Source: Gammaproteobacteria bacterium | GTDB taxonomy: Bacteria; Pseudomonadota; Gammaproteobacteria; Pseudomonadales; Porticoccaceae | Length of the DNA stretch: 40,968 nt | NCBI GenBank assembly: GCA_003645535.1 | Contig: QNFP01000008.1 | Span: 1-40,968 of the forward strand | Reading direction: 5' to 3' | Shown: piece after piece, positions 10,444-36,118 of the stretch | Numbering within the stretch: position 1 is the first letter of the stretch | How the letters are laid out: the number at the start of each line of letters is the position of its first letter | Made by a program: the position numbers and the translations under genes | The notes under the pieces: model-generated | Told to the model about the DNA's origin: nothing | Seen by the model: only the letters and a program-made list of their open reading frames with translations | Databases searched by the model: none

Positions 10444-10986
10444 ATGAACAAAACGGTAGTTTCTACTTGCATGCTTGCGTTGCTACTCTCTACGGTGAGC
10501 GCCTGTGGCTGGCACTTACGCGGCTCCACCGGCAGTGCCGCTAACGCCAACTTCAACTTTGACCGCATACATATCAGTGCTCAAAACCAGCGTAGCGATA
10601 CCGTCCGCCAGCTGAACAGACAGCTACGCGCAAGCGGTGTGAGCCTGTCCGACATCGCCACAGACGCCAGCTACAGGCTGGTTATCATGAAGGAGAGGAG
10701 CGATCAACGCACTGCAACAGTAAGCGCCAGCGCGCGTATTTCAGAGCTATCTTTGACCGAGACAGTAGAATTTACTGTGCTGGATACAGACGGCAAACCG
10801 GTTATTCCACCCACCCTGCTCAAGGTAGAGCGAATATTTGAATACGATGAACACAATGTTCTCGCCACCGCAGATGAGTCACGAATGCTCAAAAGCGAAA
10901 TGCGCGGGGATCTGGCAGGGCAGATATACAATCGTTTGCGCCGCCTGAAGAAACCTGCTGCAGCTAGCAATGCGCCTGCCAGCTGA
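10444..10986 (+). CDS. lptE: LPS-assembly lipoprotein LptE
   Basis: LptE is the outer-membrane lipoprotein that plugs the LptD barrel and completes the LPS translocon. The 180-residue product begins with a lipoprotein signal peptide; the lipobox VSAC places the acylated cysteine at residue 21, followed by the typical GWHLRG start of mature LptE. The rest has the expected LptE size and alternating strands. A Shine-Dalgarno AGGA lies 8 bases before the ATG. It follows leuS and overlaps holA by 17 bases, the standard order in Gammaproteobacteria. Its partner lptD is encoded about 9 kb away at 19743, and its acylation would need the Lnt encoded at 6085. Confidence 0.95.
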   Translation: MNKTVVSTCMLALLLSTVSACGWHLRGSTGSAANANFNFDRIHISAQNQRSDTVRQLNRQLRASGVSLSDIATDASYRLVIMKERSDQRTATVSASARISELSLTETVEFTVLDTDGKPVIPPTLLKVERIFEYDEHNVLATADESRMLKSEMRGDLAGQIYNRLRRLKKPAAASNAPAS

Positions 10987-12016
10987 GCAACTGCAAAATA
11001 ATTTAAACCAGGGGCCCGGACCGGTGTATGTGGTCACGGGCGATGAGCCTTTGCTGGTTCAGGAAGTCTGCGATACCATCCGTAGTACCGCACGAGCTAA
11101 TGGTTTCGGTGACCGGGAGCTGTTTGAAGTCAATCAACATTTCGATTGGCACCAGGTACTCAACGAAGCCAACAGTCTGTCACTTTTTGCTGACAAAAAG
11201 ATCCTCGAACTACGCATTCCTTCTGGCAAACCCGGCAGGGAGGGTGGCAAGTTTTTTGACGAGTATTGCCAGAACATAAACACCGATAACTTGCTGCTCA
11301 TCATACTCCCCAAACTGGATAGAGCGGCGACCAATAGCAAATGGTTTCGAACCCTCGATAGTCACGGAGCGATCGTACAAATTTGGCCGGTCACTGCGAC
11401 GCAAATGCCCAACTGGATTAACCGCCGTCTACAGGCGGCGGGAATAAAAGCAAACAAACAGGCTATTGAAGTACTGGCCGACCGTGTAGAGGGCAATTTG
11501 CTGGCAGCCAGCCAGGAAATCGAAAAACTTAAGCTGCTCATTGAAGACGGTGTTATCGATGTTGAAACCATGTCGACGGTAGTCGCTGACAGCGCACGTT
11601 ACAGCGTCTTCAATTTGGTTGACCGAGCGCTGTCCGGCGACAGCGAAGCTGCTGCGCGAACGCTTTTCGGCTTGCGCAGCGAAGGTACTGAACCGAGTAT
11701 CGTGTTGTGGGCACTGACTCGCGAACTGCGTACGTTGGTGAAGGCCAGTGAACAAATCGCTGCGGGGGCGCACACTGATTGGGTATTGAAAAGTCTTGGC
11801 GTATGGAGCAAGCACCAACCACTGATACGTAGTGCCTTAAAACGATTGAGGCCAGCGCAACTGGTGATGCTGTTACGCCAGGCCGCAGGTGTCGATCGCG
11901 CCATAAAAGGTTTGAATCCAACTTCGCCCTGGCAGGAATTGACTACTATTATATTAAGCATGAGTGGCGACAACCCCATCCACCCACAAAACTTACGCCT
12001 GGGCTTGCGCCAGTGA
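10970..12016 (+). CDS. holA: DNA polymerase III subunit delta
   Basis: HolA is the delta subunit of the clamp loader; it opens the beta sliding clamp. The 348-residue length and the layout fit the family: an N-terminal domain (YVVTGDEPLLVQEVCDTIR, residues about 19-37), a 'SLFADKKILELR' block that contacts the clamp (about 70-81), a central domain with EGNLLAASQEIEKL, and the C-terminal collar domain. The ATG lies 17 bases inside the lptE frame, so the two genes are coupled. Little conserved sequence follows, only a decayed gene remnant. Confidence 0.96.
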   Translation: MRLPAEQLQNNLNQGPGPVYVVTGDEPLLVQEVCDTIRSTARANGFGDRELFEVNQHFDWHQVLNEANSLSLFADKKILELRIPSGKPGREGGKFFDEYCQNINTDNLLLIILPKLDRAATNSKWFRTLDSHGAIVQIWPVTATQMPNWINRRLQAAGIKANKQAIEVLADRVEGNLLAASQEIEKLKLLIEDGVIDVETMSTVVADSARYSVFNLVDRALSGDSEAAARTLFGLRSEGTEPSIVLWALTRELRTLVKASEQIAAGAHTDWVLKSLGVWSKHQPLIRSALKRLRPAQLVMLLRQAAGVDRAIKGLNPTSPWQELTTIILSMSGDNPIHPQNLRLGLRQ

Positions 12017-12279: not shown

Positions 12280-13209
12280 GTGGGCAAAAAAAAGGATCGA
12301 GCGAAGACCGGTCGACTGGGCCTCTATGCACCGCGTTTCTGGCCTTCATGGCTGATAGTAGGCGTAACCTGGTTGCTGGCCAAACTACCAATGAACGTGC
12401 AACACCGTCTTACTAGTGGCCTCACCACACTGGCATTAAAAACCCGCTCGTCCCGGATTAAAATCGTGCACCGAAATATTGAGCTGTGTTTCCCCGAACT
12501 GTCGCCCCAGCAACATGAAGAATTGGTCAAAAAAAATCTGTATTCCACTCTGTTAATGTTATTTGATCTGGTTAATATCGTCTGGAACTCCCGTGAATCC
12601 AACCTTAACCAGGGTCGAATGGTGGGCGAGGAGTATCTGCACCAGGCACTGGCGACAGATAAACCATTACTGCTGGTATCCGGCCATGCCAACTGCTTTT
12701 TACCGGCTATCACTCTAATCTCAACTATTACGCCCTTTTCAGTAGTCTATCGCCGCATGGACAATCCAGTACTGGAAGCACAGCTGTATCAACGCGGACG
12801 CAAGCACTATCCCGTTGAAACTATCCACCGTAAAGAAACTCGCTATATGTTAAAAAAACTGGTCAAAAAAGGCGTGATCCTGGTCATTCCAGATCAGGAT
12901 TTTGGCGGCAAACGAAACCCCTTTATCCCTTTTTTTGGCATCGACACCGCAACCATAACAGCCATTCCCAAATACGCTACGTTCGCTGACGCGAACGTAT
13001 TGCTTTATTACACCCACAGGGAACCAGACGGACGATATATTGTTGAAGTGGAACCAATGCTGGAAAACTATCCATCCGGGGACGATATAGCCGATACAGT
13101 GCTCTGGAGTGACTGGCTGGAGAGAAAAATTCGCGAACACCCAGAAGACTATTTATGGTTACACCGTCGCTTTAAAAGCAGACCCAAAGGCGAGGCAAAG
13201 CTCTACTAA
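12280..13209 (+). CDS. LpxL/HtrB-family acyltransferase with altered catalytic motif
   Basis: The 309-residue product belongs to the lipid A lauroyl/myristoyl acyltransferase family (LpxL/LpxM/LpxP), inner-membrane enzymes that add secondary acyl chains to lipid A. Family marks are an N-terminal hydrophobic segment (about 21-38), HRNIELCFPEL (about 65-75), PDQDFGG followed by FIPFFG (about 206-225), and the C-terminal WLHRRFKSRP block. The usual HX4E catalytic motif is H136-ANCF-L141, so the acidic residue is replaced by Leu. The enzyme may be inactive, use another acid, or act on a different lipid. Translation starts at GTG with AAGGA upstream. Its 3' end is 4 bases from the convergent DUF815 gene. 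Confidence 0.88.
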   Translation: MGKKKDRAKTGRLGLYAPRFWPSWLIVGVTWLLAKLPMNVQHRLTSGLTTLALKTRSSRIKIVHRNIELCFPELSPQQHEELVKKNLYSTLLMLFDLVNIVWNSRESNLNQGRMVGEEYLHQALATDKPLLLVSGHANCFLPAITLISTITPFSVVYRRMDNPVLEAQLYQRGRKHYPVETIHRKETRYMLKKLVKKGVILVIPDQDFGGKRNPFIPFFGIDTATITAIPKYATFADANVLLYYTHREPDGRYIVEVEPMLENYPSGDDIADTVLWSDWLERKIREHPEDYLWLHRRFKSRPKGEAKLY

Positions 13210-13213
13210 AGAC

Positions 13214-14062
13214 TCATCTGGGCATACCGGCCTGGGGGCGATACTGGATCCGAAATTGTTTCGCCGTGCGGCCACTCTTTGAAGCCCGCACCATAGCAAA
13301 CTGTTTGGCTGCAAGGTGCAGGGCGTCCCTTCCGCCAGGGGCGTCCTTTAATGAACCATTTGCTAAATCGTTTGGTGAATCGTTTCGCTGATCTCCAGGC
13401 TGATCTGCCGGGAAGTCGTCAAATAAATCATCCACAATAGCCAGGTACTGAGCCATGGAATTCGGGTAGAAAGACAGCCATAAACCAAACCGGTCAGCCA
13501 ACGACAACTTTTCCTCTACCACGTCACCATAATGCAATTCACCGGCAACGATTTCGACGCCTTCATTGTCAGTCTTTTCCTCACTAATTAGATGGCGGCG
13601 ATTGGAAGTCGCGCAAACCAGCACATTTTCTGGCGGCAACTCTATCGAACCCTCCAACACGCTTTTTAAATGTTTATAGGCTGTTTCACCTTCATCGAAG
13701 GATAGATCATCACAAAAAATCAAAAATCGTTGCGGTAATTCCCGTAGATCATCCACTACCTCAGGCAAATCATCGAGATCATCCTTGTCTATTTCAATGA
13801 CCCGTAGACCCTCCGTGTGGTAGTTGTTCAGTGCAGCTTTAACCAGTGATGACTTACCGGTGCCGCGGCTACCCCACAGCAGGATATTATTGGCCACAGC
13901 GCCACGCAAAAACTGCTCAATATTTGCTTTAAACTCGGCTTTCTGTCGGTCAATCCCTAGCAATTCGTCAAAACCAATAGTATCGATTCGCTTCACCGCC
14001 CGTAAGCTGCCTCGCTTAGGTCGCCAAATTGCAGCCACATCGCTATTCCAGTCGATACTCAT
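13214..14062 (-). CDS. DUF815-family AAA+ ATPase
   Basis: The 282-residue product is a DUF815-type P-loop ATPase: Walker A GSRGTGKS at residues 64-71 and Walker B FLIFCDDLSF at about 113-122, with LLWG before and the sensor-like block VLVCATSNRRHLISE after. The N-terminal segment FDELLGIDRQK is also typical. Function in this family is unknown. I use the ATG at 14062, not an ATG 48 bases upstream, because GGGAG lies 8 bases before it and it overlaps the TGA of the VanZ-like gene as ATGA. Near the C-terminus there is a low-complexity stretch rich in Asp, Asn and Pro (about 225-250) that looks like an insertion in an otherwise compact domain. Confidence 0.92.
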   Translation of the reverse strand: MSIDWNSDVAAIWRPKRGSLRAVKRIDTIGFDELLGIDRQKAEFKANIEQFLRGAVANNILLWGSRGTGKSSLVKAALNNYHTEGLRVIEIDKDDLDDLPEVVDDLRELPQRFLIFCDDLSFDEGETAYKHLKSVLEGSIELPPENVLVCATSNRRHLISEEKTDNEGVEIVAGELHYGDVVEEKLSLADRFGLWLSFYPNSMAQYLAIVDDLFDDFPADQPGDQRNDSPNDLANGSLKDAPGGRDALHLAAKQFAMVRASKSGRTAKQFRIQYRPQAGMPR

Positions 14063-14448
14063 AGTTTTTTCTCCCGCCGCACAGTGAATGCAAAATATCT
14101 TCCTGGCCATCTGGTTATGTACAGGGACAACAGCAAATTACCGATCCCCGCACCGCTTATATTGGCCAACACATCGGCGCCTTCCATAAATCGGTAGCCG
14201 GTGCTGTACTGAAGCAATTCTATCGATACCCCAAAAGCCAACAGACCAAGGTGTATTGCCCAGCGCAACACCGGCCCGGGAAAAGCCAACCAGGCGACAA
14301 TATAAAGACAGGCATAAGTGATGCAGTGCGCTATCTTATCAACACCAACAAACAGTTCATCGCCAGATGCCGGGCTCAATGACGCGTAACTGACAACCAA
14401 TACTGCAACCGCGAGGACCACTCGCCAGAACACCAAAACGACTCCCAC
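14059..14448 (-). CDS. VanZ-like small membrane protein
   Basis: This 129-residue protein has about four hydrophobic segments (roughly 4-22, 38-55, 61-80, 95-112) and the VanZ-family pattern: DKIAHCITYACLY, then IELLQY..GYRFMEGADVLANISGAGIG. The polar residues of these motifs (His, Glu, Gln, Arg, Asp, Asn) are all kept. VanZ itself gives low-level teicoplanin resistance, but most family members have no known role, and I do not infer resistance here. It starts with GTG; only a weak GAGAG precedes it. Its stop overlaps the DUF815 start, so the two form an operon. Confidence 0.85.
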   Translation of the reverse strand: MGVVLVFWRVVLAVAVLVVSYASLSPASGDELFVGVDKIAHCITYACLYIVAWLAFPGPVLRWAIHLGLLAFGVSIELLQYSTGYRFMEGADVLANISGAGIGNLLLSLYITRWPGRYFAFTVRREKKL

Positions 14449-17890: not shown

Positions 17891-18562
17891 CTAAATGACG
17901 TTGAGATAATTTAGCCGATCTACCGTACCGACATCGGACCACTCCCCGCGGTAAAGCTCGCCACTGACTTTGCTGTCAACAATTGCCGGCACCAACACGT
18001 CGATAAGTGGGAATTTCGCGCAGTCGCGGCTAAATAAAGTAAACATTTGTGGGTCAATCAGAGCAATACCGCTGTAAGTCAGAGCTTTTCCGGGCACCTC
18101 TCTCAAGCCCACTGCGCCACCTTTATGGAGCTGAAAATCACCGTCCGGGTGATAGTTCGGGTTGGGCACGAGTACCAGATGTGCAACATTGCCCTCGAGG
18201 TTATGTCGCGCTAATGCAGCAAAAGGATAATCTGTCCACACATCACCATTTACCAGCACAAAAGTCTCCTCGCCCAAGAAGGGCAACGCGCGGCTGATCC
18301 CGCCTCCCGTCTCCAGTGGCAACTCTTCCCGCGACCAGGTAATGCTTACACCAAACCGGGCACCGTTGCCGAGCACACTTTCCAGCTGCTCTCCCAGCCA
18401 GGCATGGTTAATAACAATCTCAGTAATTCCAGCGCTTGCCAATCGCTCCAGATGATACTGAATAAGCGGCTTGCCCCGTACAGGCAGTAGTGCCTTGGGT
18501 GTGTGGTCAGTCAGCGGTCGTAACCGCCGTCCGTAACCGGCAGCCAAAATCATTGCTTTCAT
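17891..18562 (-). CDS. murU: N-acetylmuramate alpha-1-phosphate uridylyltransferase MurU
   Basis: MurU makes UDP-MurNAc from MurNAc-1-phosphate in the peptidoglycan-recycling bypass that skips de novo, fosfomycin-sensitive synthesis. The 223-residue product is a nucleotidyltransferase with the N-terminal signature MILAAGYGRRLRPLT...PKALLPV (residues 4-29), the ETGGGI block (about 83-88), the metal-binding LVNGDVW (about 102-108) and the C-terminal EWSDVGT. Its start overlaps the stop of amgK by 4 bases, the gene that makes its substrate, which strongly supports the call over a generic sugar-nucleotide transferase. Confidence 0.94.
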   Translation of the reverse strand: MKAMILAAGYGRRLRPLTDHTPKALLPVRGKPLIQYHLERLASAGITEIVINHAWLGEQLESVLGNGARFGVSITWSREELPLETGGGISRALPFLGEETFVLVNGDVWTDYPFAALARHNLEGNVAHLVLVPNPNYHPDGDFQLHKGGAVGLREVPGKALTYSGIALIDPQMFTLFSRDCAKFPLIDVLVPAIVDSKVSGELYRGEWSDVGTVDRLNYLNVI

Positions 18563-19596
18563 GCCTCACCTGCCGTATGCCAGTCTTGATACCAATCCTG
18601 TTGCGCGGATATTTCCAGCAGTACCGAGGTAAACCATTGGTAGAAATCTTGTGTGTCAGCATACCGCTGCGCTACTTCGAGGGTATAGCGTATAACCAAT
18701 GGTAAATCGGCCAGATAACCCGATTTACCATCACGCAAGCAGAGCCTTGCAAAAATACCCAGCACCTTGATATGCCGCTGCAGGCCCATCAAATCAAACC
18801 AGCGCTCATACTGTTGCTCGGTTACGTCTTCAGCTGCCAGACCGGCCTCCTTCGCTTTGTGCAAAAACCGGCACATACGCTGATTCACCAGAGATTGTGG
18901 CCAGTGTACATAACAGTCGCGTAGCAACGACACCAAATCATAGGTACTTGGACCAATAACAGCATCCTGAAAATCAATCACACCGACATCGTGGTTGGGC
19001 AACAGCATTAAATTGCGACTGTGAAAATCCCGATGCACCACCACCTGGGGTTGCTCAAGTGCATTGTTGACCAGCACATCGAACAAACGCTCCAACATTT
19101 GCTGCTCAGCGATAGTCAAAGGGTGACCGAGTAGCTCAACTACAAACCATTGGCAGAAAAGCGCCATTTCATCGCGTAAACGATCAACACAATATTCTGG
19201 AAACACATGCGTATCTGCAGGCACCTGCTGTATTTTCAACAATACCGCCTCAGCACGCTCATATAGGCCCTCTGCTGTCTGTGCGGTAAGCGAATCCTGA
19301 TAAAGCTCTGCACCCAAATCTTCCTGCAATAAATATCCATGCTTATAATCCACCGCATAGACCCGGGGCGTATGCACGCCTGCGCGGGAAAGCGCGAGAC
19401 CGATCCTCACAAAGCCTATATTATTTTCCTGCTGCGGTGGTGCATAAGTCGCCACCATCGGTGGTCGGCTATTAATTCGAAAATACTTTCGAAAGCCAGC
19501 ATCACCAGATACAACTGCCAGGTCAATATCATCACCGAGCAGCTGCCCGGGCAGATACTCTTTTATCCAGTTCTTCAGCCCATCGTTATTCAACAT
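18559..19596 (-). CDS. amgK: N-acetylmuramate/N-acetylglucosamine anomeric kinase AmgK
   Basis: AmgK phosphorylates MurNAc (and GlcNAc) at C1, feeding MurU. The 345-residue product has the aminoglycoside-phosphotransferase fold: an N-terminal lobe with SGDAGFRKYFRI, LLQEDLG near residue 95, the catalytic loop VVHRDFHSRNLM and the metal-binding VIDFQDAVIGPSTYDL. The start at 19596 is my choice because it matches the usual family N-terminus and a CAGG lies 5 bases upstream; the ATG at 19629 would add 11 residues and has no ribosome binding site. It is divergent from lptD with 146 bases between. Confidence 0.93.
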   Translation of the reverse strand: MLNNDGLKNWIKEYLPGQLLGDDIDLAVVSGDAGFRKYFRINSRPPMVATYAPPQQENNIGFVRIGLALSRAGVHTPRVYAVDYKHGYLLQEDLGAELYQDSLTAQTAEGLYERAEAVLLKIQQVPADTHVFPEYCVDRLRDEMALFCQWFVVELLGHPLTIAEQQMLERLFDVLVNNALEQPQVVVHRDFHSRNLMLLPNHDVGVIDFQDAVIGPSTYDLVSLLRDCYVHWPQSLVNQRMCRFLHKAKEAGLAAEDVTEQQYERWFDLMGLQRHIKVLGIFARLCLRDGKSGYLADLPLVIRYTLEVAQRYADTQDFYQWFTSVLLEISAQQDWYQDWHTAGEA

Positions 19597-19742
19597 ACAA
19601 ACCTGTTCGCCAATCGAATAAATGAACATTTTAGCCGAATCACGTCGTCAACTCTTCTACCACGCCCAAGTTCAGGTAGAATGTCGCGCTGGGGATATAA
19701 GGCTGGCGTCGCCTGATACCGGCCTTACACTGGACATAAAAT

Positions 19743-35257: not shown

Positions 35258-35626
35258 TTAAAGTACTTCTGGCGCCAGGGAAATGATCCTCATAAACTTT
35301 TCACTACGTAATTCCCGCGTGACTGGGCCGAATATACGGGTACCAATAGGCGCTAGTTGGGCGTTTAGCAACACCGCTGCATTATCATCAAATTTGATCA
35401 AACTACCGTCTTGCCGCCGTACACCGCTCCGGGTTCTTACGACAACCGCATCCATAACCTGACCCTTCTGAACTTTACCCCGGGGGATAGCTTCTTTGAC
35501 GGTCACTTTGATGATATCGCCAATCGCCGCATAACGGCGATGCGAACCACCCAGTACTTTTATACACATCACACGACGTGCACCGCTATTGTCCGCTACA
35601 TCCAGATAACTCTGTGTCTGTATCAT
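35258..35626 (-). CDS. rplN: 50S ribosomal protein L14
   Basis: L14 forms part of an intersubunit bridge. The product has 122 residues, exactly the family length, beginning [21 protein letters not shown] and ending with [21 protein letters not shown] lies 5 bases before the ATG. Confidence 0.98.
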
Positions 35627-35664
35627 TTCTTTCCTTTGCTCCGAATCTTTTTAGTCAGCCCGAT

Positions 35665-35925
35665 TCAAACGACTGTCGCGCGCACTACTACATCGACCAG
35701 CTTCCAGGACTTGGACTTTGAAATCGGCCTGGTTTCAGCGATGGTCACCATATCCCCAATACGACACTGGTTTTGTTCATCATGGGCTTTTATCTTAGTA
35801 GAGCGATTAATAATCTTGCCGTACACCGGGTGTTTTACTCGGCGCTCTATCAGCACAGTGACGGTTTTATCCATTCTGTCACTGACTACTTTTCCTGACA
35901 GTGTGCGAGCTTTTTTCTCTGTCAT
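35665..35925 (-). CDS. rpsQ: 30S ribosomal protein S17
   Basis: The 86-residue product has the S17 OB-fold pattern: [29 protein letters not shown] and the [21 protein letters not shown] block. GGGAAG lies 6 bases before the ATG. It begins 1 base after the rpmC stop. Confidence 0.97.
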
Positions 35926-35926
35926 T

Positions 35927-36118
35927 TCAGCTTCCCGAATTCTCGTTTAACACAGTCTTGATACGAGCGATATCACGCCGTACCTGCTTCATTTCGTGAC
36001 TTTGATTAAGCTGCCCAGTGCCACGCCTGATGCGCAGCTTAAACTGTTTTTCCAGCGTAGCCATCAGGCTCTCCTGCAACTCCGCCGCAGACTTTTCGCG
36101 TAGTTCACTAGCTTTCAT
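35927..36118 (-). CDS. rpmC: 50S ribosomal protein L29
   Basis: The 63-residue product is a two-helix protein with [18 protein letters not shown] at the start and [13 protein letters not shown] near the end. It sits at the tunnel exit where signal recognition particle and trigger factor dock. Its ATG overlaps the rplP stop by one base (TAATG). Confidence 0.97.

Follow-up and report, generated by a model that had tools for sequence, protein, structure and literature searches.

The HX4(D/E) motif serves as the signature of the acyltransferase superfamily that includes the lipid A late acyltransferases LpxL and LpxM. The role of its acid in the lipid A enzymes is unsettled since LpxL and LpxM mutants need the acid, whereas the LpxM and PatA structures pair the histidine elsewhere. 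In a review (PMC6286764), E. coli LpxL is described as losing activity 1000-fold in H132A, 3000-fold in E137A, 170-fold in R169A and 15-fold in D200A. The same review describes A. baumannii LpxM as having His122 hydrogen-bonded to Asp192 and 7.6 Å from Glu127, which ion-pairs with Arg159; both E127 and R159 are critical, the crystal structure of the E127A mutant (5KNK) has an acyl chain held in the pocket, and each of the pairs may support one of two transfers, LpxM having been reported to be bifunctional. In PatA, the relay is reported to run from His126 to E200 of block 3 and D131A of HX4D to retain 37% activity; the block-3 acid is suggested there to be used by HtrB and MsbB as well (PMC4792965). 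VexE is reported to be active with Tyr at the motif-acid position (HX4Y), to tolerate Phe there and to need its His and block-3 Asp (PMC9597891), and the lack of HX4D/E in LpxJ is linked to a missing second positive residue of block 2 (PMC6148475). An earlier note on the DNA described below, made from the sequence alone, had held that the Glu completes the catalytic dyad in the known enzymes; given the His–Asp192 pair of LpxM, the His–E200 pair of PatA and the active Tyr form of VexE, this is not supported in that form. A search of open-licence papers yielded no description of a clade inside LpxL/LpxM that lacks the acid. The precedents for acid loss, VexE and LpxJ, fall outside the LpxL/LpxM group.

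A full-length LpxL-type gene lacking the motif acid

The gene lies in a 40,968-nt stretch of gammaproteobacterial DNA, hereafter called the window. Its principal features are as follows.

12280–13209, + strand: PF03279 acyltransferase gene, LpxL-type, without the HX4(D/E) acid; intact open reading frame of 309 aa with a GTG start
12685–12687, + strand: His136, the family catalytic base, invariant in 21/21 clade members and 92/92 acid-bearing relatives
12700–12702, + strand: Leu141, replacing the motif Glu/Asp (clade L7 I4 V4 F3 A2 C1; relatives E72 D20)

The codons CAT GCC AAC TGC TTT TTA at 12685–12702 encode H136 A N C F L141, and E. coli K-12 LpxL (MG1655) shows HFLTLE in the matching columns of the alignment. 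Of HX4(D/E), the His is thus present and the acid missing; the codons confirm that the motif Glu is gone, as the earlier note had read, and the His that it described as kept is found throughout the clade. The protein scores 169.3 bits against PF03279 (gathering cut-off 22.3) over profile positions 9–294 of 295, and a Pfam scan with E up to 1 returned PF03279 alone, at residues 16–299. In that scan of the 309-aa protein, neither the LpxJ domain DUF374 (PF04028) nor a VexE-type TPR region joined to the LPLAT domain was found. The top subfamily profile is TIGR02207 (LpxL/HtrB), with 227 bits versus 152 for LpxM. This is below the curated TIGR02207 cut-off of 297.8 bits, as is the 219.6 bits of a second clade member (L074); the cut-off is passed by five of six acid-bearing LpxL-type controls, the sixth (L170) being short by 3 bits. 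An AlphaFold2 model of the protein (mean pLDDT 92.9) matches LpxM 5kn7 with a Z of 28.1 and an rmsd of 2.4 over 253 residues, and PatA 5f2t_A with a Z of 25.0, and the Foldseek matches ranked below acyltransferases are unrelated folds. As modelled, the window protein has the LpxM/PatA fold.

Members, hosts and neighbours of the acid-less clade

Homologues were sought in 38 genomes, the window's own included, and in one scan of 84,980 species genomes, from which the best 80 of 110 relatives were used. In the 38 genomes and these best 80 of 110 relatives, close homologues of the window protein form a separate set at 50–65% identity, the next best reaching at most 41%; with L154, added via its genus, the set amounts to 21 proteins from 20 genomes, mostly of Porticoccaceae. 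The acid at His+5 is absent in all 21 clade members found, versus none of 92 aligned acid-bearing LpxL-type relatives (counted without four distant paralogues, L001, L003, L161 and L164), and position 141 is filled in the clade by six different uncharged residues. A maximum-likelihood tree of 84 of 118 rows (33 acid-bearing rows were taken out by a fixed rule, plus L100), built without the motif and block-2 columns, places the 21 proteins in one clade with 100/100 support, a single state change and a stem branch of 1.04 changes per column. The tree that the earlier note proposed for a separate HX4L group yields such a clade, with position 141 not confined to Leu. The canonical LpxL proteins of the carriers' own taxonomic family sit elsewhere in the tree, away from the clade.

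The proteins are full-length with no internal stops, and His136, Asp205, Arg158, Arg184, His295, Arg297 and Lys299 are invariant in 21/21. Among the 16 clade pairs of lowest dS, 13 have a dN/dS of 0.056–0.094, and the other three, between distant members with dS of at least 1.26, have 0.26–0.32. None of these 16 pairs includes the window gene, so purifying selection on it is inferred from clade conservation. The carrier genomes are mostly fragmented MAGs, which lends some colour to a sequencing error, misassembly or decayed gene. However, independent assemblies share the loss, which an error at 12700–12702 therefore cannot explain, the codons and residues at 141 are varied, and dN/dS is well below 1 in close pairs; this explanation is already refuted and keeps next to no probability. 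A better alignment fares no better as an explanation, there being no clade-common acid from His+1 to His+24 that could be placed at the catalytic position. The loss of the acid is real and clade-wide, and the gene is well preserved, as the earlier note had judged when it called the gene not decayed.

In NCBI, the carriers are mostly MAGs named Porticoccaceae, Cellvibrionales, Pseudomonadales, Methylococcaceae, Cycloclasticus or Gammaproteobacteria. The gene occurs in 16 of 112 genomes of the window's family (genus g1, 6/6; genus g6, 7/7; genus g12, 3/4). In ten of these 16 (G002–G005, G010, G016, G089, G106, G109 and G110), seven of which are at least 93% complete, no other PF03279 gene was found; the MAGs being incomplete, absence from a single genome is weak evidence, and its recurrence in seven well-covered ones carries more weight. 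G107 carries a tandem of two acid-less copies and no other PF03279 gene, and contig L067 is the same by position; its copies, L067:4899–5825 and L067:6001–6927, are mutually diverged (HFNGFV and HFSTFL). A weak PF03279 relative of 27–31 bits with HLGNLE is also found in G001, G021 and G108, that of G001 being present in one search and absent from another. The window's genome (G000) has a distant tandem PF03279 pair with HLSNWE and HFSNWE (loci L001/L003, contig C192, 6 kb), which may be strain-specific or contamination because the other genomes of the genus gave no such pair in the same search. G090 also encodes a 522-aa PF03279 protein with HLGAWN, and the four carriers outside the family set (the genomes of L072, L075, L077 and L078) have one distant paralogue each, with HHCNWE.

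The earlier note had asked for a second, canonical lpxL or lpxM in the same genome. No second, close LpxL beside the clade gene, and no canonical LpxL, was seen in the carrier genomes searched, and the gene therefore looks like an LpxL replacement. LpxC and LpxK were found in 9/9 clade genomes tested and the WaaA N-terminal domain in 11/11, and DUF374 was found in 0/11, Caulobacter being the sole control to give a match. The lipid A genes looked for are thus present in these bacteria, in most of which the acid-less gene is the only known kind of late acyltransferase found. The inventory also bears on the possibility that the enzyme is active on an acceptor other than lipid A, such as another glycolipid, in which case lipid A would stay tetra-acylated or be served by an enzyme of another family. 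The long stem, the score under the LpxL cut-off and the branching apart from the family's canonical LpxL genes all speak for such a change, as does VexE, which works on UDP-GlcNAc. But LpxL beats LpxM by 75 bits as best match and no canonical LpxL stands alongside, and we regard another acceptor as distinctly improbable.

The neighbours, which the earlier note had taken to give no hint, include a lipopolysaccharide transport gene.

10444–10986, + strand: lptE, LPS transport lipoprotein, upstream (PF04390, 56.8 bits)
10970–12016, + strand: holA, the immediate upstream neighbour (PF06144, 68.5 bits)
13214–14110, − strand: DUF815 gene, convergent, downstream (PF05673, 308.5 bits); it adjoins the gene in g1 and g6 loci

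The order leuS–lptE–holA–gene–DUF815–VanZ–AMP ligase is conserved in the g1 and g6 loci long enough to show it, with extra sequence separating holA from the acid-less gene in g6 loci; in L067 this gap holds an oxidoreductase-like open reading frame, named from sequence reading, and the first acid-less copy. In g12 and the four other carriers the gene is sited elsewhere, and conservation of the LPS neighbourhood is limited to g1 and g6. The window also carries lnt and lptD–surA–pdxA–rsmA, named from domain matches. Siting beside LPS genes agrees with a role in lipid A and is no proof of one. Several further genes were observed in passing. An AbgT-family transporter gene lies directly 3' of the acid-less gene, in the same orientation, in two loci (L072:6934–8466 and L077:6945–8471), and L078 has an open reading frame of the same size at that place. 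Nucleotidyltransferase and APH-like kinase genes adjoin lptD at 17891–19629 (− strand) of the window, a pair reminiscent of cell-wall sugar recycling genes. A 179-aa open reading frame without a Pfam match at 35411–35947 (+ strand), opposite ribosomal protein genes, is probably a chance frame.

A candidate His136–Asp205 pair and an altered block 2

Four further residues concern the putative partner of His136 and the site of the lost Glu–Arg pair.

12892–12894, + strand: Asp205 of PDQD, the block-3 acid and proposed partner of His136 (21/21 clade, 92/92 relatives)
12760–12762, + strand: Asp161, a possible substitute acid at His+25, the first clade-common acid past His136 (20/20 in the alignment)
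12793–12795, + strand: Arg172, clade-invariant, at +9 on the block-2 helix, immediately ahead of the family block-2 Arg position
12799–12801, + strand: Arg174, at +11, Arg in the window member only (1/21 clade)

Asp205 aligns with D200 of E. coli LpxL (its number counted from H132), and its counterpart in A. baumannii LpxM is D192. The earlier claim that the other family blocks are intact has to be amended for block 2, the Arg of which is shifted by one residue throughout the clade. At +9 of the block-2 helix, Arg is found in 21/21 clade members versus 1/92 relatives; at +10, in 0/21 versus 92/92, the clade having Ala, Gly, Val, Ile or Leu there. Arg172 is matched to R159 of LpxM (R169 in E. 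coli LpxL) by phmmer, though not by MAFFT. The helix spans residues 163–174 in the window model and Pro149 to 162 in that of a canonical relative, L084, and both begin at an equivalent Pro. A one-residue insertion at 167, considered as a firm clade marker, was rejected: MAFFT shows it, phmmer against LpxM places the gap otherwise, and by DSSP the helix of L084 begins at the same point. The Arg positions are accordingly given as plain offsets along the helix.

A general rule that Glu and Arg are lost together was likewise discarded, being broken both ways by other PF03279 proteins. In L158 and L162 the acid is replaced by Asn and the block-2 Arg is retained, and three weak relatives of ~310 aa (L055, L056 and L166, of G021, G001 and G108) keep the Glu and have no block-2 Arg. 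The former two (L158:715–2310 and L162:811–2376, of G088 and G090) are 522–532-aa proteins with HIGAWN and HLGAWN and a long N-terminal stretch that matches no Pfam family. A further PF03279 protein, L057 of G032, has HVGAWQ, with Gln for the motif acid, and keeps the block-2 Arg.

It is conceivable that the enzyme is active through a rebuilt block 2, in which Asp161, Glu166 or Arg172 forms a new pair replacing the lost Glu–Arg. The invariance of Asp161 and Arg172 would suit this, and several clade-specific invariants (D161, Y170, R172 and H183) are placed in or near block 2. Yet Asp161 is no new feature, since Asp is often found there in the nearest acid-bearing relatives (f6) and also in E. 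coli (NDNP), and Glu166 is replaced by Gln in 2/20; we therefore consider a new block-2 pair unlikely.

From the sequence, the clade, its conservation, the gene inventory and the predicted fold we infer instead, with a probability of roughly 0.55, that the protein is an active late lipid A acyltransferase that pairs His136 with Asp205, has its Glu–Arg pair dismantled or rebuilt and stands in for LpxL in its lineage. His136 would act as general base on the acceptor hydroxyl, and its partner would be the block-3 Asp205, as reported for PatA, VexE and one of the two dyads proposed for LpxM, and not an acid at His+5. The pair of motif Glu and block-2 Arg would have been dismantled or rebuilt, the Glu giving way to a hydrophobic residue and the Arg lying one residue nearer the helix start. 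Should LpxM work by the dual-dyad model, such an enzyme would be expected to add a single secondary chain instead of two. Because the gene is well preserved and often the sole enzyme of its kind found in a genome, it probably uses a different acid, and the earlier suggestion that another acid may serve fits the invariant Asp205. Invariant His136 and Asp205 with a varied position 141 is the pattern expected if a dyad is retained and the position beside it is released from constraint. The clade would thus fit the pattern of the literature, in which the pair serving the His is kept and the other is dismantled or rebuilt.

Other observations argue against this mechanism. In LpxL and LpxM, the two relatives studied best, the lost residue (Glu) matters more than the kept one (Asp); these mutant data oppose an easy loss of Glu and hold our estimate where it is. 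The score below the LpxL cut-off and an LPS neighbourhood confined to g1 and g6 speak further against an LpxL role, and so long a stem allows a change of acceptor. The protein might also be dead or nearly so, and retained as a binder of lipid A or of acyl-ACP, or as an LPS transport partner: a similar change, E127A of LpxM, gave a crystal structure with an acyl chain in the pocket, and the gene is near lptE in g1 and g6. Against this, His136, Asp205 and the C-terminal H295, R297 and K299 are all invariant, were the protein dead, the search would have turned up no late acyltransferase acting on lipid A in the ten sole-gene genomes, and VexE shows that the acid is dispensable in the superfamily. 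A dead protein is in our view rather unlikely.

Comparison with known acyltransferases

Building on the favoured reading, we tentatively put forward, at somewhat under even odds, that a lineage of marine gammaproteobacteria swapped canonical LpxL for an LpxL-type enzyme with a His–block-3 Asp pair and single-site action, the Glu–Arg pair having been dismantled on one stem in convergence with LpxJ. If true, this replacement of LpxL would offer a natural experiment on which acid the His relies on in the late acyltransferases of lipid A. The clade lives without the acid and with the Arg that contacts it changed, which makes the question testable in what is apparently the sole late acyltransferase of most hosts. 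It also counsels caution, the motif alone being no ground for calling a PF03279 protein inactive.

Among the known enzymes, E. coli LpxL (HtrB, Kdo2-lipid IVA lauroyltransferase) shares full-length homology, the His base, the block-3 Asp and the C-terminal HRRFKTRP block with the window protein, whereas the clade has a hydrophobic residue for E137, a displaced R169 and a score under the LpxL cut-off. A. baumannii LpxM (5KN7) is alike in fold, His and block-3 Asp, and at position 141 the window protein resembles the E127A mutant; the Glu127–Arg159 pair reported for LpxM is not present in such a form. Mycobacterial PatA (5F2T and others) shares the fold and is reported to have a His–block-3 relay in which the HX4D acid is structural; unlike the window protein, it keeps D131 and R164, and it acts on PIM1/PIM2 with palmitoyl-CoA. 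VexE, the Vi antigen C-6 beta-hydroxyacyltransferase, is similar in the replaced motif acid and in requiring the His and block-3 Asp that the clade keeps, yet it is very divergent, has a TPR region and uses UDP-GlcNAc, whereas the window protein, at 309 aa, is simply of the LpxL type. LpxJ (DUF374) likewise has no HX4(D/E) and no second positive residue in block 2, with His and a block-3 Asp proposed for catalysis; it belongs to another family, whereas the window protein matches PF03279 only.
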